Shown here: positions 12,368 through 25,012 of the stretch, piece by piece
Layout of the letters: each line of letters starts with the position of its first letter
Position numbering within the stretch: the stretch's first letter is position 1
DNA from: a bacterium
Lineage (GTDB): Bacteria; UBP6; UBA1177
Length of the DNA stretch: 64,000 nucleotides
Direction: 5' to 3'
Assembly: GCA_017405875.1 (NCBI GenBank)
Contig: JAFQZM010000033.1
Span: 1 to 64,000, forward strand
The notes under the pieces: generated by a model
What the model was told of the DNA's origin: nothing
The model's input: the letters and a program-made list of their open reading frames with translations, nothing else
Databases searched by the model: none
Made by a program: the position numbers and the translations under genes

Positions 12368-15178
12368 ATGAAGAAAATCCTCGTTCCAATCCTGATTCTG
12401 ATGTTTTTCACCGTTTCATGCGGCAGCTCGAAAAAAACTGAAAATAACGACACTGACTTAATGCCGGATGAAGATACTTCGGATGTTGATGAACAAACAG
12501 ATAATGAAGAAAATGAAATAGACGACGGCAATCCGTGCAGCAAAATAGCAAATTCTGATGGCGAATATACTCACATCTCCGATAAAAAATTCAAATGCGG
12601 CTGTCTTGAAGGATATTTCTGGGCAAATCCCGGCTGCAAAAAAATAAGTTATCCCAACATCTGTACTGGAGCCTCCGCCTGCTACTCAACGTGGGAAAGA
12701 ATCGACTGCCGTGAGCCGGGCGAAGAATTTTACGGTCAGGATGCGCAGTATGCGAAACTCGGTTACTGTATCAAACAAGATTTTTCGAGACAAAATTCCG
12801 TCAAAGACGAACCGACTTATTTCGACAACAATTTGAAAATCGAATGGATGAATAAATTTTCAGACAAGACTTATAATTGGTATGATGCTTTTTATTACTG
12901 CAGAGATCTGAAATACGGCGGTTACGACGACTGGCGGCTTCCGCTTCCGCAGGAACTGCTGCTGTTTTATATCAAGTCCGGAGTTTCTCTGTGGTCTGAT
13001 CAGTTGCTGGCAAATAAAGACGATTCTTACGCTTGGAAACTCGATCCAAGCACTATGAAGTTAAGCTATGCCCAGAAAACGGAACAGAATAATGTCAGAT
13101 GCGTACGCGGAGATCCGATAGATGTAGCCTCTTCGTTCAAATCTATCGACACCTATCTTACTGTGGACTACAAAAACGGACTTATGTGGAGTACTGCAAA
13201 TTTTACCCGCGACAAAATGTGGAACGAGGCTCTTACCGAGTGCGAAAATTCAACCGTAGCGGGTTTTTCCGACTGGAGACTTCCCAACATTCATGAACTC
13301 GTAACACTGCTGAATTTAAAAAAAAGCGATCCTGCTTCCGATTTCCCCTACCCTGAAAACATACCGGTTTATTTCTGGTCGTCAACGACTCTGAAATCAA
13401 ACATAGAAGAATCGCCGGGAGTAACCATTTACGGTTCAGGAGGGATAAAGAATCTTGATAAATCCGGAGTAACCAAAAATTATGAATACAATATGAACCG
13501 AGTCATCTGCGTCAGAAACGAACTTTGCAAAGAAAACTATTTCTGGAACGGCGTTGACTGTGTTGAATCGCCCTGCAGCGGAGATCCCTGCAAAAAGGAC
13601 GTTCATTCAGACGGAGTATGCCACTTTGAAAGCACTGAGACTTATTCCTGCGGCTGCGTTGAAAACTATTTCTGGGACGGCACCAAATGCATAAATCCGT
13701 GTGATGCAAAACCGTGCAAAAACCACGAGCATTCGGATAACAAATGCGTTCCTCGCGACAAAATGCGCTACACCTGCGGCTGTGAGGAAGGTTTCTGGTG
13801 GTGGGGGCAGAACAAAGGCTGCCTTGAAAAAAAGCCTGACTTAGCACACATCTGCACAGGTCAGACCAAGTGTTACGACGATGAAAAAGAGATCGAGTGC
13901 CCCGAAAAAGGTGAAAAATATTACGGTCAGGATGCGCAATATGCCGATCTCGGATACTGCGCACCGCCCGACTACACAATTGAGAAGAAAGTCGAAAACG
14001 AACCTGTAGTTATCGACAACTATACAGGGCTCAGCTGGCAGCAGAAAGTTTATTCGCCTGAAACATCCGTCCCGTGGAGCAACTATAAAAATTACTGCAG
14101 TAATTCGACTTACGGCGGCTACGATGACTGGAGACTGCCAAGCCTTCTGGAATACAGAACTATCATGGATTTCGGCAGACACCATCCGAATATTGATCCT
14201 AAATATTTCCCGGATACTCCGCCAAAATATTTTGTAACTTCCATTTATATCTCTTACGGCTGCGGAGAGCTTCCATATCCAATACCGGCGAGATGGGTCT
14301 ACCTGATAGATTTTGATCATTTTGACATAATCTGGACCGAAGGCTGCTCTGAGGATCCTTATTTCGACCTTCCTGCCCGCTGTGTCCGCGGAAATGAATC
14401 ATTCGGCGAACGTTCGATGTCGGAGATCAGTGTTTCGGAAACGAAATCACTTTATGTAGACAATAAAAACGACCTTTTGTGGGCAGGAGCTCCAGGAGGG
14501 GAAAAATGGGATGAAGCTCTTGATTACTGTGAGAATATGACTTTTGCTGGGCTTTCAGACTGGCGTCTTACTAATATCAATGAATCTTCTCTGTTTATTG
14601 AAAATTTAAATAATATTGATCCGGTCTATTCGTATTACATTTCATCGACAACTGAAGATTTCGATCCGACCAAATCAGTTCAAAACCTACTGAAAACAAG
14701 GGGCGACTACATGCTCTGCGTCAGAGACAATCCCTGTGAAACCGGTCAGTTCTGGAACGGAACCAAGTGCATGAAAAATCCGTGCGCAGATCTTCCGTGC
14801 AAAGATATTGAGCATTCTGACAAAAAAATATGCACTCCGGTCAGTGAGGATGTTTATTCATGCAGCTGCAACTACTATTACTACTGGAACTTCAACAGTC
14901 TGAAATGCATAGAATCATGTAAATCCCAACCTTGTGAAGGCAAATCCTACAGCACAAAAGAGTGTTTCGATGATGATTTTAAAGGTTACAGCTGTGGCTG
15001 CGTTGAAGGATACTCATGGGACAGCGCATCAAAAAGATGTGTTAAGGATGAAACCCCCGACGAAGCTCCGGACACCGACACGGATGAAATACCGGATTCC
15101 GATACCGACGACATTACTGATTCCGATACAGATATCGCAGAAACACCGGACGAAACAAACGATGACGACGGAGAATAA
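12368..15178 (+). CDS. Large modular lipoprotein: four DUF1566 domains and EGF-like modules
   Basis: A 936-residue predicted lipoprotein and the first gene of a five-gene array. The lipobox is T-V-S-C (Cys18), then an acidic leader (about 19-55) and one Cys-rich module. A conserved cassette starts with I-C-T-G and contains Y-G-Q-D-A-Q-Y-A. Two DUF1566 domains follow (about 147-243 and 260-382, each with W-R-L-P and V/I-C-V-R), then three six-Cys EGF-like modules (about 399-488) and a second I-C-T-G-Q-T-K-C cassette (494-535). Two more DUF1566 domains (about 545-676 and 695-787), three more Cys modules and an acidic Pro/Asp/Thr tail (894-936) complete it. The layout suggests an internal duplication of cassette-DUF1566-DUF1566-Cys modules. 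It is probably surface-exposed and disulfide-bonded; the ligand is unknown. GGAGG precedes ATG 12368. Confidence 0.9.
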   Translation: MKKILVPILILMFFTVSCGSSKKTENNDTDLMPDEDTSDVDEQTDNEENEIDDGNPCSKIANSDGEYTHISDKKFKCGCLEGYFWANPGCKKISYPNICTGASACYSTWERIDCREPGEEFYGQDAQYAKLGYCIKQDFSRQNSVKDEPTYFDNNLKIEWMNKFSDKTYNWYDAFYYCRDLKYGGYDDWRLPLPQELLLFYIKSGVSLWSDQLLANKDDSYAWKLDPSTMKLSYAQKTEQNNVRCVRGDPIDVASSFKSIDTYLTVDYKNGLMWSTANFTRDKMWNEALTECENSTVAGFSDWRLPNIHELVTLLNLKKSDPASDFPYPENIPVYFWSSTTLKSNIEESPGVTIYGSGGIKNLDKSGVTKNYEYNMNRVICVRNELCKENYFWNGVDCVESPCSGDPCKKDVHSDGVCHFESTETYSCGCVENYFWDGTKCINPCDAKPCKNHEHSDNKCVPRDKMRYTCGCEEGFWWWGQNKGCLEKKPDLAHICTGQTKCYDDEKEIECPEKGEKYYGQDAQYADLGYCAPPDYTIEKKVENEPVVIDNYTGLSWQQKVYSPETSVPWSNYKNYCSNSTYGGYDDWRLPSLLEYRTIMDFGRHHPNIDPKYFPDTPPKYFVTSIYISYGCGELPYPIPARWVYLIDFDHFDIIWTEGCSEDPYFDLPARCVRGNESFGERSMSEISVSETKSLYVDNKNDLLWAGAPGGEKWDEALDYCENMTFAGLSDWRLTNINESSLFIENLNNIDPVYSYYISSTTEDFDPTKSVQNLLKTRGDYMLCVRDNPCETGQFWNGTKCMKNPCADLPCKDIEHSDKKICTPVSEDVYSCSCNYYYYWNFNSLKCIESCKSQPCEGKSYSTKECFDDDFKGYSCGCVEGYSWDSASKRCVKDETPDEAPDTDTDEIPDSDTDDITDSDTDIAETPDETNDDDGE

Positions 15179-15190
15179 AAGGGGGCGGCC

Positions 15191-16870
15191 ATGAAAAAAC
15201 TCCTCATTTTCTTACTTCTGGCAACATTTTTCACCGTTTCATGCGGAAGTTCGAAAAAGACTGAAAACAACGACACCGACATTCTGCCGGATGAAGATTT
15301 AATCAATGATGAAGAAGCAGTCGAACCGGATGAAGATACGGTGGATGAAGAGCTGAACGATACAGATGAAGATGAGCTTGAGGATATAGATCCGTGTGAT
15401 CCGAATCCATGCTACGGGTTGGAAAATTCCACCGGAGAATGTATCACTGATGCAGACAAATACTCCTGCGGATGTGTTGACAACTATTTCTGGGACGGCG
15501 TTAAGTGTGTAAATCCGTGTAAAGGAATCGATTGCACTAAATTTGAACACGCAACAGGTCTCTGCAAACCAAATAACGCTTTTTCCTTTTCATGCAACTG
15601 CGACAAAGGTTACTTCTTCTGGCGATGGGAAGATAAAAGATGCCTTGCAAAAGAACCAGCCGCAGTGAATATCTGCACCGGTCAGACGAAGTGCTACGAC
15701 AATGAAAAAGAGATAGATTGTCCGGCTGAAAACGAAGAATTTTTCGGTCAGGATGCCAACTATGCAAGGCTTGGATTCTGCATTCCGCAGAGTTTTTCTA
15801 TCGACAATTCTGTCGAAGACGAACCTGTCGTAGTTGACAACAACTTAGGTCTGATGTGGCAGAAAAAAATCCCGCCTTTAGAAGAGCGTTATATTGAAGA
15901 TGTTTTGCAATACTGCGAAAATCTTGTTTACGGCGGTTATGACGACTGGAGGCTGCCGACATTAGAGGATTTCATGAGCATTGCCGATTACGGCAGATAC
16001 GATCCGGCAGTCAATGCCGAATATTTTCCTGATTCAGGAGATTTCTGGACAGCTACAAAATATAAACTTATCAATGGATGGCCTGAGGGCAACTATGCCG
16101 AACATCACACGATATTCGACTTTGAAGAATCTTCCTCATATCAAGAGGTGACATGCCGCGGCTTAGCAGGCCTCTCACCGGATTACGAACCTTTTTCATT
16201 CAACATCAGGTGCGTCCGCGGAGGCACAGCAAAAACTTCAGGCTATATTCTGCCTGGAACTTTATGGGAAAATACCATATGGAGCGACAATAATCTGATC
16301 ATCATGAAAAAACCTGACACAGATTTAACTTGGGCTGAAGCTCTGAAATACTGTTCTGAGCTCGACTATGCAGGTATTTCAGATTGGAGACTGCCTAACG
16401 TCAAAGAACTTGTCCTGAGCCGCTGGGGCAGCAGCGACTTTTCCTTGTGGGAGAATGCTCTGACATCAACAACAAAACCTGCCGATCCGGCTTTCAATTT
16501 TTCGAATTTAAACTACCGGCTGGCATCTTACAACTACTCCGCATATTTTTATTCAAAAAAAGAAAAGGTCAAAAGCGCACTTGTCTGCGTTGCGAACGAT
16601 CCGTGCGGGAAAGGAACATTCTGGAACGGCGTTAAGTGCGTGAAAAACCCGTGTGACCCCAATCCGTGCGAATCGGAAGACGACCTGAACTCGACATGCA
16701 AGATCATTGACGAAAACAGTTACACCTGCGGTTGCAGCCGATGCATGGACACCTATAAAGAACACAGCACCGGGAAGTGCCACGATGATATAATAAACGG
16801 CTTTTACTGCAGCTGTGAGAAAGGATATTACTGGAGTCCTTGGGCAGGAGAAGGATGCGTCAAAGATTAA
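15191..16870 (+). CDS. Modular lipoprotein: two DUF1566 domains between EGF-like modules
   Basis: A 559-residue predicted lipoprotein, second in the array. Its first 30 residues are almost the same as those of the preceding gene (S-C-G-S-S-K-K-T-E-N-N-D-T-D), showing recent duplication of the leader. After an acidic stretch (19-67) come two six-Cys modules (about 68-156), the I-C-T-G-Q-T-K-C cassette at 161 with F-G-Q-D-A-N-Y-A, two DUF1566 domains (about 214-344 and 367-470), and further Cys modules to the C terminus (471-559). It therefore corresponds to one half of the upstream protein. GGGGGCGGCC just before ATG 15191 is the ribosome site, 12 bp after the upstream stop. Confidence 0.88.
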   Translation: MKKLLIFLLLATFFTVSCGSSKKTENNDTDILPDEDLINDEEAVEPDEDTVDEELNDTDEDELEDIDPCDPNPCYGLENSTGECITDADKYSCGCVDNYFWDGVKCVNPCKGIDCTKFEHATGLCKPNNAFSFSCNCDKGYFFWRWEDKRCLAKEPAAVNICTGQTKCYDNEKEIDCPAENEEFFGQDANYARLGFCIPQSFSIDNSVEDEPVVVDNNLGLMWQKKIPPLEERYIEDVLQYCENLVYGGYDDWRLPTLEDFMSIADYGRYDPAVNAEYFPDSGDFWTATKYKLINGWPEGNYAEHHTIFDFEESSSYQEVTCRGLAGLSPDYEPFSFNIRCVRGGTAKTSGYILPGTLWENTIWSDNNLIIMKKPDTDLTWAEALKYCSELDYAGISDWRLPNVKELVLSRWGSSDFSLWENALTSTTKPADPAFNFSNLNYRLASYNYSAYFYSKKEKVKSALVCVANDPCGKGTFWNGVKCVKNPCDPNPCESEDDLNSTCKIIDENSYTCGCSRCMDTYKEHSTGKCHDDIINGFYCSCEKGYYWSPWAGEGCVKD

Positions 16871-16899
16871 AAACCGACTTGTGAGAAAGAGGTGAACAC

Positions 16900-18243
16900 A
16901 TGAAAAAACTCATAATTTTTCTGATTCTGACAATGTTTTTCGCCGTTTCATGCGGCGACTCGAAAAATACTGATAACGATGCCGACATTCTGCCGGATAA
17001 AGATGCCACTGATGTTGATGAAAATGATGAAGAAACGGCAGAGCCGGATGAAGAGGACGAAGCAGAATCATCTGTTCCCGATGAGGATATTCCTCTCGAA
17101 GAGGCTGTCTGCAAGCCGAATCCGTGCAAAGAGATAGAACACTCCAACGGAAAATGCGAATTCGACGGTGACAAAAGCTACATCTGCCACTGCAAAGAAG
17201 GTTATTTCTGGGAGGATTACAAATGTGTCAGTCCGTGCGATGACAATCCCTGCGATAATGTCAAAAACTCGGACGGATGCTACACGAAAGACAGAGAAAC
17301 TTTCGCATGCAGGTGCAAAGAAGATTATGCCTGGGACGGAGAGGCCTGCCTGAACCCATGTGAAAGCCACACCTGTCCAGCGCATTCAGAATGTCATCCT
17401 TACAATGCTACCAGTTACGGCTGCATCTGCTACGACAACTTCTTCAAGGAAAATGACGAATGCGTAAGTCCGTGCGACCCCAATCCGTGCAAAGGAATAG
17501 CCAATTCCACAGGGAAATGCATTGCGGCAAACGCAAGCAGATACTCGTGCGAATGCAAAAACAACTATGTCTTCACTTACGGAAACGAATGCGTCAGCCC
17601 GTGCGACCCCAATCCGTGCGACGGTCTTGAGAATTCATCGGGAACCTGTTACACCATCGGCGCAAACAGCTATTCATGCGGCTGCAGCAAAGATTTTTAC
17701 TGGCTCGGAGAAAACGGCGGATGTCAGCCCATACCGGAATGCAGCCCTGAAAACAACGGGTTCTGCAGGGATTCGGAAAGCCAGCTTATCTGGTCTTCAA
17801 GAGCCGAAAGAACTGATTATCCCGGAGCGCCACAGCTCTTCCGCATATTTGAAAGAGCCGAAGCATACTGCAGCAGTCTGAAAGAGGGCGGTTTTGCAGA
17901 CTGGCATCTTCCGACGATAGACGAGCTGCGTACTCTGATCGTAAACTGTCCGAAACTGGAACCCTACGGAACATGCAGGGTGAGCGACAGGACAGGATGC
18001 CTTGCTTCTACTTGTTACAGTGAATCGCAGTGCCTTTGCGCAGGAGATGGTTCAGACGTTCTCTTCTCCAAGTTCGGTGCCGAGGGATACGGTCAATACT
18101 GGTCATCTTCTGCAGGAGGATTCGACGGTTACAAACAATACTGGCTGATACAGACGGAAGGATCGGCAAATGTCTTCTCGTATGATCTTTACGAGTATCT
18201 CAACGAATACTTTTATGCACCGGCACGCTGCGTCCGCAAATAA
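16900..18243 (+). CDS. Modular lipoprotein: five EGF-like modules and one DUF1566 domain
   Basis: A 447-residue predicted lipoprotein, third in the array, with lipobox A-V-S-C (Cys18) and an acidic leader (19-65). Five consecutive six-Cys modules (about 69-275) follow the pattern C-x4-C, a Ser/Thr-Gly-x-C segment, Y-x-C-x-C and a closing aromatic-rich loop to the sixth Cys; C-D-P-N-P-C opens two of them. A single DUF1566 domain ends the protein (about 281-447: W-H-L-P-T-I-D-E-L-R-T-L, Y-W-S-S-S, R-C-V-R-K). It lacks the I-C-T-G cassette of its neighbours. AGAGGTG precedes ATG 16900. Its stop is 11 bp before the next start. Confidence 0.88.
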   Translation: MKKLIIFLILTMFFAVSCGDSKNTDNDADILPDKDATDVDENDEETAEPDEEDEAESSVPDEDIPLEEAVCKPNPCKEIEHSNGKCEFDGDKSYICHCKEGYFWEDYKCVSPCDDNPCDNVKNSDGCYTKDRETFACRCKEDYAWDGEACLNPCESHTCPAHSECHPYNATSYGCICYDNFFKENDECVSPCDPNPCKGIANSTGKCIAANASRYSCECKNNYVFTYGNECVSPCDPNPCDGLENSSGTCYTIGANSYSCGCSKDFYWLGENGGCQPIPECSPENNGFCRDSESQLIWSSRAERTDYPGAPQLFRIFERAEAYCSSLKEGGFADWHLPTIDELRTLIVNCPKLEPYGTCRVSDRTGCLASTCYSESQCLCAGDGSDVLFSKFGAEGYGQYWSSSAGGFDGYKQYWLIQTEGSANVFSYDLYEYLNEYFYAPARCVRK

Positions 18244-18254
18244 TGGAGGAAATC

Positions 18255-19748
18255 ATGAAAAAAGCGATGCTGTTTTTGATCATTTCGATATTTTTTGTTG
18301 TGTCGTGCGGCAAATCAAAAGTAGTTGACAATCAGGAAACTCCCGATGAAGCAGACGATACCGGTGAAACAACGACAGACGAAGATGCCGACGGAAACGA
18401 TGAAGAGGAAGATAAAGACGAGCCTGACGAAGAGAATGACGAAGATTCTCCTGACGATGAAGTTCCCGATTATTCCGAGACTTACGGTCTTCCGAAGTGC
18501 AGTCTGCAAGGCAAAACGCCGTGCTATGACCCTGCGACGGATCTTGTCTGGTCTTCGCTGACAAGCTGGCTGCGTTATGAAGATGCGCTTATTTACTGCT
18601 ATGACCTGGATGAAGGCGGTTTTTACGACTGGTATCTGCCTAATATTGACGAACTCAGAACTCTTGTGCGTCATTGTTCGGAAATTGAGCCGGGCGGAGC
18701 GTGCAGAGTAAGCGAAGAGGCTGACTGCCTTTACTACGACTGCGGATGTAACGACGAAATCTGTACCCAACCCAAGTGTTCCCAGCAGGAAGACGAAATT
18801 TTCAGCATACTGTGGGATACATACGAACTCTGGTCATCTTCAGAATGGCCTGAAGATGAAACTGTGATCTGGACGCTGGATTTCTCGGTCCCGAGCATTG
18901 AATACGGTTACAGCTGGCATTCAACAATGCGTGTCCGCTGCACGAGAAATGTTCATTCAAGCGGAGAGGACGAAGGAACGGAAACCAGAAAAGTCGAATG
19001 CTTAGGACTTCCCGAAAATGCCGAATGGAACACCGTTTCAAGCATTACGCAGACTTTTAACGGCGCAAAATGGGAACCAACCGACAAAGGTGTTTTCGAC
19101 GAGGAACCTTCAACTGAAGAATGCCGTTTCAAATGCTTCGACGATTTTACAAGTGAGTTTTTTGCGTTTAAAGACGAAGATTATGTGAAATGCTCGCCGG
19201 AATGCGGCAAAACCGAAGCCGAAATATGCATAAATCCTGACAGCGGCATATATTCGGACAGCAGAACAGGACTAATGTGGTCATCTTTTCCCCCGGAAGA
19301 CGATTACAACGACTACAACGGCTGGGCTTTCAACAACGCTGCCGCTTACTGCGAAAATCTGACGGAAGGAGGATACACCGACTGGAAACTTCCGACAATC
19401 GACGAACTGCGTACCCTGATCCGGAACTGCCCCGAAACAGAAACCGGCGGAGCGTGCAGCCTTGACAATATTCCGGATGATATTTTTGACGAAAACAACA
19501 AGGTTCCCGACGAGTGCCTCTCCTGCGAACCTGAAGAGGGACACAGCAGCAAATACAGCAGGATCGGTGATTTTGTACCGCTCTGGTCTTCGACCGAATC
19601 TCCGGTACGCGTCAATTATGTGATAGAATCCTACTGGTATGTCGATTTTTCTTCCGGCATGGTTTCTTCGATCCATGAATCGGCAAATCAGTCCGATATT
19701 CTTGTCCGCTGCGTGAGAAAAGACGAAACCTCAACAGAGGGAGAATAA
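18255..19748 (+). CDS. Modular lipoprotein: two DUF1566 domains joined by a short Cys linker
   Basis: A 497-residue predicted lipoprotein, fourth in the array, with lipobox V-V-S-C (Cys18) and a very acidic leader (20-75). DUF1566 domain 1 spans about residues 82-233 and domain 2 about 331-490, both with the L-P-(N/T)-I-D-E-L-R-T-L motif and R-C-(T/V)-R end. A joining segment contains an F-N-G-A-K-W-E-P core and T-E-E-C-R-F-K-C, a linker rather than an EGF-like module. Both domains carry extra Cys-rich inserts before the W-S-S core. An in-frame ATG at 18243 overlaps the preceding stop, but GGAGG at 18245-18249 serves ATG 18255. Confidence 0.88.
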   Translation: MKKAMLFLIISIFFVVSCGKSKVVDNQETPDEADDTGETTTDEDADGNDEEEDKDEPDEENDEDSPDDEVPDYSETYGLPKCSLQGKTPCYDPATDLVWSSLTSWLRYEDALIYCYDLDEGGFYDWYLPNIDELRTLVRHCSEIEPGGACRVSEEADCLYYDCGCNDEICTQPKCSQQEDEIFSILWDTYELWSSSEWPEDETVIWTLDFSVPSIEYGYSWHSTMRVRCTRNVHSSGEDEGTETRKVECLGLPENAEWNTVSSITQTFNGAKWEPTDKGVFDEEPSTEECRFKCFDDFTSEFFAFKDEDYVKCSPECGKTEAEICINPDSGIYSDSRTGLMWSSFPPEDDYNDYNGWAFNNAAAYCENLTEGGYTDWKLPTIDELRTLIRNCPETETGGACSLDNIPDDIFDENNKVPDECLSCEPEEGHSSKYSRIGDFVPLWSSTESPVRVNYVIESYWYVDFSSGMVSSIHESANQSDILVRCVRKDETSTEGE

Positions 19749-19761
19749 AAGGAGAATGCCT

Positions 19762-21765
19762 ATGAAAAAATTCATCATTTCAACCCTCATTCTGATGTTT
19801 TTTGTGATCTCATGCAGCAACTCAAAAAAAACTGAAAACGATGCGGATCTGTTTCCGGATGGAGATAAATTTAATAATGAAGAAGCGGTTGAACCGGATG
19901 ATGAAGACGAAGATAAAGAAAAAAGCGACAACGATGCCGACACCGCGGAAGAGGAAATTGTCGCCAAAATATCTTCTTTTGCAGAAATATGCACCGGACA
20001 GACTTATTGCGACGGGGATTGCGGAGATAAGGATAGCCCGCTTTACGGTCAGGATGCTCAGTATGCCGCCCTCGGATACTGTGTCCCGCAGAGTTTTTCT
20101 ATCGACAGTTCCGTTGAAAACGAGCCGACCGTTATTGATCTCAACACCGGACTTGAATGGCAGCAGACATTTTCCGATGCAATAGATGTGTGCGAAACTT
20201 CAGAGACATCGGAAAATGCAGGCAAAATATGCGAAAATGCGGAGAATTACTGCAAAAATTTGGAATACGGCGGACACAGTGACTGGAGACTTCCCGATAT
20301 TAAAGAACTTCTTTCCATCACTAATGTCGGAAAATATCCTGCAATCGATACTGCTTATTTTCCAGGCACTCCGTCAGGTAAATTCTGGACATCATCCTAT
20401 TTCTGGCAGGACGATATAAGATCAGGCTGGGGTTCACAAGGTGCATGGACAGTAAACTTCAGCGACGGAGCTTCCGACGCTGAACCACTGACTTTATATT
20501 CATCAGGAGAGATAGTGAAACACTCCGGCATTCGTGCGCGGTGTGTCAGAGGCAAAACTCTGCCGGGAAGCCAGCTGATTGCTTTAACTATAGGCGAAGA
20601 AAAGATCATAGTAGATGCGAAAACGGATTTTATCTGGTTGTCTGGCTATGGAACCGTATCAAGCTGGGAAGAGGCCCTTCAGTACTGCGAGAATCTGACT
20701 TATGCGGGCATCTCCGACTGGAGACTTCCCAACAAAAACGAGCTTACATCTTTTTTTAACTACAGTTTAAAATATCCCTCTACTATGGACTATTTTCTTT
20801 CGTCTACATCTTCCGGAAGCAGCTTTGTCTGGGTCGTCAGATTTTCCGGGAGTGCCCCGCACATTGCGGAAAGAGTTGAAAAGCACCCTTTTGACGAAGT
20901 TTTCGGAAGCACTCACACTTATGCAGTGCGCTGCGTCGCCAAAAGTCCGTGTGCAGAAGACGAAATATGGAACGGAAAAGAATGTGTAATGCACGCTTGC
21001 TCTGCAGTCAAATGTCCCAAGGATGAACATTCAACAGGCAAATGTACTGTTTTGGGTATTGATTCTTATAAATGCGGCTGTGTCGAAGGCTGGTTCTGGA
21101 ACGGCGAAAAGTGTGAAGATCCCTGTCAGGCAGAGCCGTGCAAAGATATGCCGCACTCGACAGGAATATGCAGCGCTAAAGACTGGAATAAATATATCTG
21201 CGGATGTAATGGAGGCTATTTCTGGGACGGAGAGAAATGTATGAATCCTTGCGATGCTGAGCCTTGCAAAAATATGCCGAACACAACAGGAAAATGCAAC
21301 GCTAAAGACTGGAACAGATATATCTGTGAATGTGATGCCGAATCTTTCTGGAGCTCCAGCGAAGAATGCATTGACTCTTGCGATCCCAACCCGTGCGACA
21401 TGCCGCATTCTACCGGCCTCTGCAAAAGATCGTCAGATAATGTCTCCCCTATCTGCGAATGTGAAGAAGGCTATTTCTGGAACGGTATCAACAGAGGATG
21501 CGTTGATCCGTGTGAAACAGCCAAATGCGATAAACCGCATACAACGGGAATATGCACAGGTAAAAGTGTGGATGAATATTACTGCGAATGTGAAGGATAT
21601 TATTTTTGGAATCCTTACTCATACTCATGCATAACCATTTGCGAAACTATTTCGTGCCGCAATATTCCACATGCAACCGGCGACTGCACACCTATAAGCA
21701 AAACCGAATACCAGTGTGACTGCGAAAACGGCTATAATTGGAATGGTGAGGAATGCCTTCCTTGA
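19762..21765 (+). CDS. Modular lipoprotein: two DUF1566 domains and six EGF-like modules
   Basis: A 667-residue predicted lipoprotein, last of the array, with lipobox V-I-S-C (Cys18) and an acidic leader to about residue 70. The I-C-T-G-Q-T cassette with Y-G-Q-D-A-Q-Y-A starts near 77. DUF1566 domains are at about 123-266 and 283-393 (D-W-R-L-P, then R-C-V-R and R-C-V-A). Six tandem six-Cys modules fill 397-667, the longest run in the window; each has C-x4-C, H-S-T-G or a close variant, and C-x-C before a W-x-G turn. GGAG at 19751 suits ATG 19762 rather than the ATG at 19756, which is too close. Downstream is a weak inverted repeat (GAGC/CTC) before a T-run near 21781, a possible terminator. 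Confidence 0.88.
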   Translation: MKKFIISTLILMFFVISCSNSKKTENDADLFPDGDKFNNEEAVEPDDEDEDKEKSDNDADTAEEEIVAKISSFAEICTGQTYCDGDCGDKDSPLYGQDAQYAALGYCVPQSFSIDSSVENEPTVIDLNTGLEWQQTFSDAIDVCETSETSENAGKICENAENYCKNLEYGGHSDWRLPDIKELLSITNVGKYPAIDTAYFPGTPSGKFWTSSYFWQDDIRSGWGSQGAWTVNFSDGASDAEPLTLYSSGEIVKHSGIRARCVRGKTLPGSQLIALTIGEEKIIVDAKTDFIWLSGYGTVSSWEEALQYCENLTYAGISDWRLPNKNELTSFFNYSLKYPSTMDYFLSSTSSGSSFVWVVRFSGSAPHIAERVEKHPFDEVFGSTHTYAVRCVAKSPCAEDEIWNGKECVMHACSAVKCPKDEHSTGKCTVLGIDSYKCGCVEGWFWNGEKCEDPCQAEPCKDMPHSTGICSAKDWNKYICGCNGGYFWDGEKCMNPCDAEPCKNMPNTTGKCNAKDWNRYICECDAESFWSSSEECIDSCDPNPCDMPHSTGLCKRSSDNVSPICECEEGYFWNGINRGCVDPCETAKCDKPHTTGICTGKSVDEYYCECEGYYFWNPYSYSCITICETISCRNIPHATGDCTPISKTEYQCDCENGYNWNGEECLP

Positions 21766-21820
21766 GCAAGTAGAACTCGCTTTTTACTGATTATAATGGT
21801 TTTTTGATCGAATCTTTCTA

Positions 21821-21862
21821 CTCAAACAGCCTGATTATTTCCTGAGCTGCCTTGCGGCCTGA
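21821..21862 (-). repeat. 42-bp direct repeat, distal copy (duplicated 3' end of the GltD-like gene)
   Basis: Perfectly identical to 23846-23887. Read on the minus strand it encodes the last residues of the GltD-like protein (G-R-K-A-A-Q-E-I-I-R-L-F-E) and then runs directly into TAG at 21818-21820, one residue short of the intact gene. Sequence on either side differs from the other copy. Confidence 0.95.
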
Positions 21863-21883
21863 TTTTTATGAAAAACAGATACT

Positions 21884-23761
21884 CTATGGATTTGTTGTTT
21901 CGCAGATTGTACCGTCGCATACTGTCGCACACTGTTCAAGATCGGGGCTCGGCATTCTGCGGATGCCTCCGTTTGTAGGAACGCATACATAGTAAGAAAC
22001 AAAATCGCCTAAATATTCATGCGATGTTGACGGACCGAAATAATAGGATGAGCATCTTTGTGATGTTGTTTCATCTTCCTCGCACGGTCTGTAACATGCC
22101 GCATGATTCTTATCTGCATCAAACCACCCTCTTGTTGTCAGGCATCCGTTGTCGCTGCAGCCGAGTGCTTCGACCTTGTTGTCTTTGCAGGACATAGCCT
22201 GATTATAAAAACAGTGCTCAACAAAAGTTTCAGGATCACATGGCGCGGAATTGCTTTCGTCCTGATCCTCAGGCACGTCTGCAAGCCCTACGCATGAAAA
22301 TTCGTCTTTGCAAGGAGAGTTGCACGCTTCAGTAAAACTTTTACTTGATCCTTCAAAATAGAGGCTTCCCTTACTTGTTTGCAAACAGAATTCGTGCTGG
22401 ACTATTCCTGCAGTGAAAACATATCCGCTTGTTGTGGCGTATGCCGTTTCGCTGCATGATGCGGTATCTCCGGAAAAATTGTTATTGCACGGTTTATAAC
22501 AGCCGGCATGATTTCTCTCTTTATAAATGTCGTATAGCCAAACTGTTGTCATACAGACTTTTTCACCGCAATTATCTTTTTTGACCTGCTTGTTCCGAGG
22601 ACAGTATACACGAATGTTGTCTTCGCAATGTTCTACAAAAGTTTCAGGATCACATTCGGCACCGGAATCGTTGATCTGGTTTTCAGGCACTGTCTGAATG
22701 TTTTCGTCCGCAACGAAACCCTCTTCCGGATCAGCTTCACTAAACGCTTTTTTGCTAAAAACCGAGAACTCGAAATAGTATCTGCTTCCCGAATCGAAAA
22801 TTTTATGATCCGAGTCTGTTTCGTGTGCTGCGACACTTGTTTTGACGGAATAAATATAGCCGTCCATTTCAACAGATTCCCAGTTTCTGACAATTACGCT
22901 TTTGCAGTTTCTGGTGAATTTCAAAGGTGGAGCCATCCTGACATCAATGACTTCATTGCCGTCGTCATCAGTATAATAAATGTTGTAAGTCGCACAGTTT
23001 TCAGGAACATACATTTCAATATCAAGCTCAGGAAATTCTTTAACAGTAAATTTTTCTCCGATATCCTGCCCGTATACATTCTGAGCCGACAAAGCAACCA
23101 AACCGCCGTTTTTATCAGTTACAATCGCCGCTTTGGTTTCCGGCCAGAAATTTTTGACTACCCCACTGCGTTTTACTATTTCAGCCGACTTAAGATGCCA
23201 TTTTTTGCCGATAACATTGTCTCTTTTAATCAAATCATCTGTTGCATAGGCAATCTCTATAGAACAATCTCCGGATTCATTCCCGCATGGTCCTATAACC
23301 ATCATGCTGAAATAAGGCGTATTTGTGTAATATTTCACATTATTGACAATCATCCTCCGTTCGTCAGAGCTTTCTCCTGAAACACCGAGCCAGTAATTCT
23401 CCTTATTCACTTGTTTAGGACAGCTTTCACCGATGATTTTCGGGACATCTTCAGAATTGCAAAACTCATCAGGAGATTCTTCAAAATCCACGTCATTCGT
23501 TTCCGCATCTGAATCGCCGGCATTTTCAGAATCATTGTCGTTCAGTTCAGAATCCGTATCTTGTTCAGCATCTTCGTTTTGTTCAACGTCACCGGTTTGT
23601 TGTTCTGCATCTGAACTTTCTTCATCCTCAGTTTCCTGATTTTCAACTTTGTCAATGTCGGTATTGTCAGATTCCTGCTCTGTTTCAGTCTTCTTTTTGC
23701 TTCCGCAGGCAGCAAAAAGAAAAAGTGCTGCGACAAGCACAAAAATCAACGATTTTTTCAT
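21884..23761 (-). CDS. Lipoprotein with acidic leader and duplicated Cys-rich C-terminal repeat
   Basis: A 625-residue predicted lipoprotein with lipobox F-A-A-C (Cys19). An unusually long Glu/Asp/Asn-rich leader (about 25-98) comes before a unique middle region (about 100-370, beta-rich, few Cys). The C-terminal third has two copies of a Cys-rich unit starting C-D-P-E-T-F-V-E-H-C (about residues 381 and 502), each with an H-A-(G/A)-C-Y-(K/R)-P-C motif and further Cys pairs. No DUF1566 domain and no EGF-like module of the array type is present. It runs opposite to the array and has its own promoter (23798-23825). The gene, its promoter and about 20-35 bp on each side fill the space between two copies of a 42-bp repeat. 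Function unknown. Confidence 0.85.
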   Translation of the reverse strand: MKKSLIFVLVAALFLFAACGSKKKTETEQESDNTDIDKVENQETEDEESSDAEQQTGDVEQNEDAEQDTDSELNDNDSENAGDSDAETNDVDFEESPDEFCNSEDVPKIIGESCPKQVNKENYWLGVSGESSDERRMIVNNVKYYTNTPYFSMMVIGPCGNESGDCSIEIAYATDDLIKRDNVIGKKWHLKSAEIVKRSGVVKNFWPETKAAIVTDKNGGLVALSAQNVYGQDIGEKFTVKEFPELDIEMYVPENCATYNIYYTDDDGNEVIDVRMAPPLKFTRNCKSVIVRNWESVEMDGYIYSVKTSVAAHETDSDHKIFDSGSRYYFEFSVFSKKAFSEADPEEGFVADENIQTVPENQINDSGAECDPETFVEHCEDNIRVYCPRNKQVKKDNCGEKVCMTTVWLYDIYKERNHAGCYKPCNNNFSGDTASCSETAYATTSGYVFTAGIVQHEFCLQTSKGSLYFEGSSKSFTEACNSPCKDEFSCVGLADVPEDQDESNSAPCDPETFVEHCFYNQAMSCKDNKVEALGCSDNGCLTTRGWFDADKNHAACYRPCEEDETTSQRCSSYYFGPSTSHEYLGDFVSYYVCVPTNGGIRRMPSPDLEQCATVCDGTICETTNP

Positions 23762-23797
23762 ATCGGACTCCAGAATGAAAATGAATAAAAACAGTGG

Positions 23798-23825
23798 ATT
23801 ATATTGAATTTTTCAGAATAAACAA
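23798..23825 (-). promoter_or_regulatory. Sigma-70-like promoter of the cassette lipoprotein
   Basis: On the minus strand TTGTTT (23820-23825), 16-bp spacer, perfect TATAAT (23798-23803), 36 bp before the start at 23761. It lies inside the segment bounded by the 42-bp repeats. Confidence 0.65.
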
Positions 23826-23839
23826 GATGAAAAAGCAGG

Positions 23840-25012
23840 TTATTCCTCAAACAGCCTGATTATTTCCTGAGCTGCCTTGCGGCCTGAAGATATCGCTTCG
23901 ACGATGGTGGAACCGCCGGTTTTGCAGTCGCCGGCATAGACAAGTTTCGCGTTGTCGTCGCTCTTCGTGTCGGAACGGCTTCCGACCGCACGGATGATGA
24001 GGTCAAAGTAAGGAAGTGAAACTGACGAATTTTCAAGCGGGACCCACTTTTCGCCGTCAAAGAAGTTGCGTCGGACGGTGAGGCAGAGTTTGTTCACGAT
24101 CTTTTCAATTTTTTCGGGGCTTGTCATGCCGCAGAGATCGATCCTGTGGTTTACGAGATCAAGGTATTCCGCTTTCGATATGCGCATGTCCGAAATGCGG
24201 CGTCTGACGAACATTTCGACCGATGCCGCGCCGTTTCTCATTGCCGTTGCCGCGCAGTCTGCCGCGACGTTTCCGCCTCCGATGACCGCGACATGGCCGT
24301 TCGTCTGGAAATCTTCCGGATGGTATAGGAAATCGGTGTATGAAACGCTGAGTTCTTCTCCCGGGATCTTGAGTTCAAGGCAGTTGGGCTCGCCTGTCGA
24401 CACGATTACGGCGTCGAAGCGGTTGAGAAGCTCGACTGTGTGGCTGACTTTCGCGTTGAGTTTCAGCGTAACGAGGTCGTTGTTGCTGATAAACTCGTAG
24501 TCGCGCTCGATCACTTCGTGCGGAAGCCTGTTTTCGGGGATCATGCAGAGAGCGCCGCCGATTTCGTGACGGCCTTCATAGATCGTAACTTTGAAGCCGT
24601 TTTTAACAAGAAGCGCGGTTGCCGCAAGCCCGGCAGGCCCTGCTCCGACAATGGCGACAGTGTGCCCGTTGTGCGGAAGCGAGACTTTTTCCGGGTGATC
24701 GACCCTGAAATTGTGCAGGATCGTCGCCTGGACTCTCGGAATGTTGACCGGAAAGTCGATTCCCGAGCGTGTGCAGGCTTTCATGCAGAATTTATCCGGG
24801 CAGATGAGGCCGCAGGTCTGACCCATCGGGTTGACACGCGTGATCGCAGCCACTGCCTCGTCCCACTCCTCAGCCTTTGAATACTGGATGAACTCGCGCG
24901 GATTGCAGCTTACGGGACATGCAGTCATGCAAGGCTGGGTTTTGCAGTTGAGACATCTTTTGAGTTCCTCGCGAAGCTGGATTTTGGTGAGATAAAGAGA
25001 TTTTTCGGACAT
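23840..25012 (-). CDS. GltD-like NAD(P)/FAD-dependent oxidoreductase
   Basis: A 390-residue flavoprotein of the glutamate synthase small-subunit/PreT family. The N-terminal Fer4_20-type domain has two Cys clusters for Fe-S binding: C-x2-C-x4-C-x3-C near residues 20-32 and C-x3-C-x4-C-x3-C near 67-80. The FAD site V-G-A-G-P-A-G-L-A-A is near 121 and the NAD(P) site I-G-G-G-N-V-A-A near 246, and the closing G-D-C-x-x-G-G-S-T-I-V-E-A segment is present. It is shorter than typical GltD (about 450-490). No GltA large subunit is nearby, so the electron partner is unknown; glutamate synthase, PreT-like and related roles are all possible. It lies 21 bp downstream of the isocitrate-type dehydrogenase on the same strand. 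Its last 42 bp before the final codons are duplicated at 21821-21862. Confidence 0.85.
   Translation of the reverse strand: MSEKSLYLTKIQLREELKRCLNCKTQPCMTACPVSCNPREFIQYSKAEEWDEAVAAITRVNPMGQTCGLICPDKFCMKACTRSGIDFPVNIPRVQATILHNFRVDHPEKVSLPHNGHTVAIVGAGPAGLAATALLVKNGFKVTIYEGRHEIGGALCMIPENRLPHEVIERDYEFISNNDLVTLKLNAKVSHTVELLNRFDAVIVSTGEPNCLELKIPGEELSVSYTDFLYHPEDFQTNGHVAVIGGGNVAADCAATAMRNGAASVEMFVRRRISDMRISKAEYLDLVNHRIDLCGMTSPEKIEKIVNKLCLTVRRNFFDGEKWVPLENSSVSLPYFDLIIRAVGSRSDTKSDDNAKLVYAGDCKTGGSTIVEAISSGRKAAQEIIRLFEE
23846..23887 (-). repeat. 42-bp direct repeat, proximal copy (3' end of the GltD-like gene)
   Basis: Lies inside the intact gene and encodes G-R-K-A-A-Q-E-I-I-R-L-F-E. It is identical over all 42 bp to 21821-21862, 2025 bp away and in the same orientation. 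Confidence 0.95.

Follow-up and report, generated by a model that had tools for sequence, protein, structure and literature searches.

Gene layout at the locus

The window analysed here, 64 kb in full, is part of contig C27 in the 2.51-Mb assembly G000, which we compared with 14 congeners. All genomes compared are metagenome assemblies, and the named relatives, including UBP6_UBA1177 and UBP6_UBA1209, derive chiefly from the rumen or other ruminant gut. Read along the gene strand, a GltD-like gene (25012-23840) is followed by a lipoprotein gene (23761-21884), by a 42-bp copy of the GltD-like gene's end, and by a convergent lipoprotein gene, lip669. The first gene is called GltD-like (below, gltD), because its scores fall below the NCBIfam gltD cut-offs. 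The features are:

23840-25012, minus strand: GltD-like oxidoreductase of 390 amino acids (Fer4_20 and Pyr_redox_2), recognised as an ORF and by its domains; the apparent recipient, whose 3′ end was used
23846-23887, minus strand: proximal 42-bp copy, encoding residues close to the C terminus of the intact GltD-like protein; the terminal codons beyond it (GAA TAA) match congener G001
23762-23845, minus strand: left flank of the inserted unit, with the last Glu codon, the gltD stop and a spacer; 100% identical in G001, with a 75% relative behind a gltD 3′ fragment at G009:C38
21884-23761, minus strand: inserted cargo, a 625-amino-acid lipoprotein-like protein with a signal peptide and a FAAC lipobox; the DNA unit is 99.8% identical in G001
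21863-21883, minus strand: right flank and distal junction between the cargo and the displaced gltD end
21821-21862, minus strand: distal 42-bp copy, the displaced gltD 3′ end, reading to TAG
21766-21820, minus strand: native downstream context (TAGAAAGATTCGATC and onwards, up to the lip669 stop), shared by G002 and G006, where it likewise follows the distal copy, and related in G012
19756-21765, plus strand: lip669, a convergent 669-amino-acid lipoprotein with Lcl_C domains; native right neighbour, which opens a lipoprotein array

The two 42-bp copies are identical and share one orientation, as the original prediction had stated, and tolerating up to three mismatches still gives only these two matches in the window, where shuffled sequences are expected to give none. 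The repeat had been described as the 3′ end of the gene; the proximal copy, however, falls 6 nt short of the ORF's end, so that the last Glu codon and the TAA lie outside it. The distal copy reads SGRKAAQEIIRLFE, with IIRLFE directly before the TAG, one residue short of the intact GltD-like protein, again as predicted.

Between the copies, the 625-amino-acid lipoprotein-like ORF is the only plausible gene, in agreement with the original prediction. The promoter of its own that had also been proposed found no support: a simple sigma-70 scan gave no site upstream of the lipoprotein start, and the overall number of sites was not above that in shuffles. A Pfam search found no domain in the protein. 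A phage source for it was considered and rejected, as it had no match among 2.9 million viral contigs. On the far side of the distal copy, the window contains a series of lipoprotein genes (12400-21765). They have Lcl_C domains together with Cys-rich repeats, and their 5′ ends, which encode the signal peptides, are closely similar.

The gltD site in congeners

One congener, G001, carries the lipoprotein unit at the identical position. The 1,734 bp following gltD differ from those of G000 by only four mismatches, whereas gltD itself shows 59 differences in its first 1,125 bp and a single one inside the repeat. The switch in divergence is located at the 42-bp repeat. Since the unit is nearly identical while gltD has diverged, its transfer between species is recent, and its boundary lies at the repeat. 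These comparisons mark the repeat as the footprint of a horizontal insertion, and the inserted lipoprotein gene as one that apparently originated in a related rumen bacterium, a congener. They support the earlier proposal of a non-autonomous gene unit, inserted at a gene 3′ end with regeneration of that end, and with no integrase or transposase nearby.

Apart from G001, the sequences of the congeners diverge immediately past the gltD stop codon, and the site holds varied cargo. It is occupied by an AAA_14/DUF4143 ATPase in G002, by a different AAA protein in G006, and by a HepT/MntA pair with an 807-amino-acid ORF in G014. In all three, a copy of the gltD end, full or partial and decayed in part, lies behind the cargo. 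The relatives' insertions mostly carry defence or toxin-antitoxin genes, with no integrase nearby. The distal copies of G000, G002 and G006 lead into the same native sequence, TAGAAAGATTCGATC, and then into lip669, while G012 has a related remnant adjoining lip669.

Additional pieces of the gltD end are found at other places in G009, G013 and G001, some of them internally deleted and mostly next to lipoprotein genes. All gltD copies retain roughly the last 20 bp. In G009, two relics (L155 7041-7202 and L157 7150-7241) consist of two or three short collinear pieces, joined across large internal deletions, and lie next to lipoprotein genes.

In several congeners the gltD end occurs once, but with other neighbours. 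An empty site with a single copy, which the original prediction had named as the supporting comparison, was thus found at gltD only in part: the exact gltD-lip669 site is a reconstruction, because none of the congener genomes examined has an intact gltD directly adjoining lip669.

The hutI sister locus

A second insertion, and the clearest crossover case, lies on the same contig beyond the window (G000:C27:83681-86905). Here, hutI (an NCBIfam equivalog) is followed by an AbiEi/AbiEii pair and then by a 100-bp, 92% identical copy of the hutI 3′ end. At this locus the empty site was found: in G001, G007, G009 and G012 the next gene begins within about 95 bp of hutI, whereas G000, G004, G010 and G014 carry AbiE pairs. 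Among G004, G010 and G014 the unit is 98.9-100% identical, against 84-85% for hutI itself, and it differs from the G000 unit. At the distal junction of G004, the cargo gene AbiEii is truncated.

The two hutI copies of G000 are reciprocal chimeras. In the distal copy, positions 1121-1175 are identical to G010 (55/55), and positions 1176-1239 match G006, the nearest relative by hutI (58/59). The proximal copy matches G010 past position 1176 (63/64); before it, the identities are 49/55 to G010 versus 48/55 to G006. Judged from these alignments, the copies evidently arose as reciprocal products when a donor hutI fragment and the resident gene crossed over once. This is the result expected if a circle carrying a hutI fragment and the cargo integrates by a single crossover. 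A plain target duplication by staggered cut was rejected for hutI, as the terminal codons (GRRIV vs GKQIL) and the distal copy have different parents. The reciprocal chimera is clean in G000 only. The signals in G004, G010 and G014 are mixed, perhaps owing to a reshuffling of alleles at hutI.

As a separate observation, G014 contains adjacent pieces of hutI and of the gene downstream of hutI (L207 8644-8777), which lie behind another lipoprotein gene and appear as scrambled remnants.

Gene-end repeats elsewhere in the genomes

A wider scan covered about 0.9 Mb of G000 and 400 kb of G007, in total 1.31 Mb with 976 ORFs of at least 120 amino acids. The scanned stretches were picked independently of gene-end repeats. 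Most G000 contigs were chosen for a weak lipoprotein hit, and the G007 contig because gltD and hutI lie on it; for this reason the rate found does not represent the genome average. Eight genes have a 3′-terminal fragment (33-109 bp) repeated outside the coding sequence, which rules out an insertion process confined to gltD. All eight fragments lie on the same strand as their gene and downstream of it, seven at a distance of 1.0-2.0 kb and one at 10 kb; no 3′-end fragment was found upstream or antisense of its gene in the 1.31 Mb. Between the genes and their fragments are AbiE pairs, small toxin-antitoxin-like genes, lipoproteins, and a longer restriction-modification-like block, annotated by reading except where Pfam or PADLOC gave a name. 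Across all insertions, the copies range from about 20 to 322 bp.

One clear counterpart at a 5′ end was found. A 188-bp segment (G000:C9:168009-168196) is a copy, at 99% identity, of the 5′ end of a neighbouring gene. It lies 5.2 kb upstream of that gene, with a lipoprotein and other ORFs in between.

Proposed mechanism and alternative explanations

The 42-bp repeat is probably the scar of an additive homologous recombination, a Campbell-type integration of a circular or circle-like fragment from a congener. Among the options that the original prediction had offered, capture by homologous recombination fits best. The donor would have been about 2 kb of congener DNA, consisting of the last 42 bp or more of gltD and the downstream lipoprotein unit. 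Once circularised, or acting as a circle, this fragment would undergo a single crossover with the resident gltD near its 3′ end. The expected product is an intact gltD with donor-type terminal codons, followed by the cargo, the truncated gltD 3′ end and the native downstream region. Insertions can recur at one gene end, so that earlier cassettes and decaying remnants come to lie farther from gltD, a layout seen in G014. By analogy, gltD may have used a crossover of the hutI type; its own crossover cannot be mapped because the two 42-bp copies are identical. We infer circularisation, the way in which the DNA entered, and the involvement of RecA. Homologues of ComEC and DprA are encoded in the genome, so that DNA uptake by natural transformation is possible.

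Two findings sit less comfortably with Campbell-type integration. The crossovers that can be placed lie no more than about 80 bp from the end of the gene, nearer to it than random homologous exchange along the gene predicts, which counts against the model. In addition, the bias towards 3′ ends (eight cases versus one at a 5′ end) requires an argument from selection, namely that 3′ ends are favoured because the recipient gene remains intact.

In homology-facilitated illegitimate recombination, a linear fragment would cross over with gltD by homology at one end, while its other end would be joined at random to the resident gene upstream of that point. The resident 3′ end would be repeated in this way, and the distal copy would be wholly native. 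A similar idea has been proposed for Vibrio cholerae T6SS immunity arrays, in which displaced 3′ ends lie downstream (PMC5361080). In keeping with it, the 5′ ends of the distal copies vary, the junctions look random (that of G004 lies inside AbiEii), the upstream part of the distal hutI copies in G014 and G004 is not of the G010 type, and the DprA and ComEC homologues are present. However, the distal hutI copy of G000 starts with 55 bp of donor type, which a wholly native copy cannot give, and this donor part favours a circle. Published cases of such recombination, moreover, are mostly known to delete rather than duplicate recipient DNA. We regard this explanation as rather unlikely.

Site-specific integration by a trans-acting recombinase (tyrosine, serine or Xer) that uses the 3′ end of a gene for attachment would account for a gene 3′ end that is hit and then regenerated by the element, and for the last 20 bp or so kept in all gltD copies. 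XerC- and XerD-like recombinases are near-universal among the congeners, and a third tyrosine recombinase of about 400 amino acids is present in most of them. Against a single site-specific element, as considered in the original prediction, stand the eight unrelated target ends from the 1.31 Mb, whose repeats share no common word above chance, the range of copy lengths, and the G004 junction that cuts a cargo gene. The cargo differs and its ends are not shared. Furthermore, no recombinase was found to track the insertions among the congener genomes: the third tyrosine recombinase gave no hit in G004 and G006, although both have insertions, and serine resolvase hits occur in G010 and G014 only. 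This makes site-specific integration improbable.

A tandem duplication within the lineage, in which gltD was copied locally together with the gene downstream and most of the second gltD was then lost, without any transfer, finds an echo in the decayed gltD relics of G009, whose internal deletions indicate that long copies do shrink in these genomes. It was already disfavoured by the G001 comparison, in that the cargo is nearly identical across species and gltD is not; the sequences downstream of the two copies also differ, and the species differ in their cargo at one site, so that we consider it very improbable. Lastly, an assembly artefact at the 42-bp repeat, an option that metagenome assemblies naturally raise, is very unlikely, because the anatomy recurs in independent assemblies of several species, where the cargo differs and some copies are partly decayed, and because repeats of other lengths occur at many further gene ends.

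A bolder extension of Campbell-type integration is that the genus has a dedicated, integrase-free form of cassette capture, in which small circles of about 1-2 kb, each with a gene 3′ end and its neighbour gene, are produced and then inserted genome-wide at gene ends. We consider this doubtful. If true, defence and lipoprotein genes would pass between species like integron cassettes, by homology alone.

Many defence and surface genes occur in genomes that show no mobility gene. Here, traces of how such genes arrived can still be read, including the donor end, the native end and the approximate place of the crossover. If this is general, a duplicated gene 3′ end would be a searchable mark of integrase-free capture that reveals donor, recipient and direction. 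Such capture may explain how AbiE, HepT/MntA and DUF4143 genes, as well as fast-changing lipoproteins, accumulate behind housekeeping genes.

Comparison with known systems

The closest known kind appears to be insertion with long target duplication, as later papers summarise it for restriction-modification genes of Helicobacter pylori, where the duplication is long and variable (Nobusato et al. 2000; Furuta et al. 2010; cited in PMC1643837 and PMC3031569). As far as those summaries describe it, the likeness lies in small units without mobility genes, present or absent between relatives, and in variable, long direct repeats derived from the target. In our genomes, too, a long direct repeat of the target gene lies on both sides of the insert, its length varies among insertions, and at hutI related genomes have an empty site with a single copy. 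Set against the same summaries, the cargo here is not restriction-modification, being a lipoprotein at gltD, AbiE at hutI, and AAA/DUF4143 and HepT/MntA elsewhere. The copies at the G000 hutI are not both target-derived, the distal one being a donor/native chimera (at gltD the identity of the copies makes this undecidable), and one gene end is reused so that arrays are built. Compared with that system, the chimera evidence, the preference for gene 3′ ends and the kinds of cargo are new.

In the Vibrio cholerae T6SS immunity arrays, displaced 3′ ends lie behind new units, and homology-facilitated illegitimate recombination was proposed as their origin (Kirchberger et al. 2017, PMC5361080). Our loci resemble that sequential displacement model in that new units enter beside a conserved anchor while older 3′ ends and genes shift downstream; there, the anchor is the upstream region of an effector-immunity module and the effector is displaced (PMC5361080). 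At our loci, in contrast, new units enter beside an unrelated housekeeping gene, which remains intact, and one of the events is a reciprocal crossover.

Minimal mobile elements of Neisseria are strain-variable genes between conserved neighbours, which lack mobility genes and are moved by recombination. Our loci share with them the different genes between conserved neighbours, without mobility genes. Those elements, however, are exchanged through recombination in both flanks and are not known to leave a duplicated gene end, unlike the insertions described here. SCC at rlmH and islands at tRNA genes restore the end of the gene they enter and leave a direct repeat behind, as in our case, but one recombinase acts there on one fixed core, whereas here there are many targets without a shared core, and no tracking recombinase was found. 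A limited literature search returned no report of such insertions for this lineage, which does not prove their absence from the literature.

Other repeats in the G000 assembly

Three further structures were observed in G000. At C18:153449-153548, two 50-bp pieces of a UvrB-like gene (positions 159-208 and 583-635) are fused, 6 kb upstream of the intact gene. A CRISPR-like array with repeats of about 36 bp and a period of about 64 bp occupies C22:49614-50985. Finally, similar 162-amino-acid ORFs lie at the two ends of contig C10 (61-602 and 66655-67197) and partly also at the ends of C3 and C9; the assembly is probably interrupted by this repeat.
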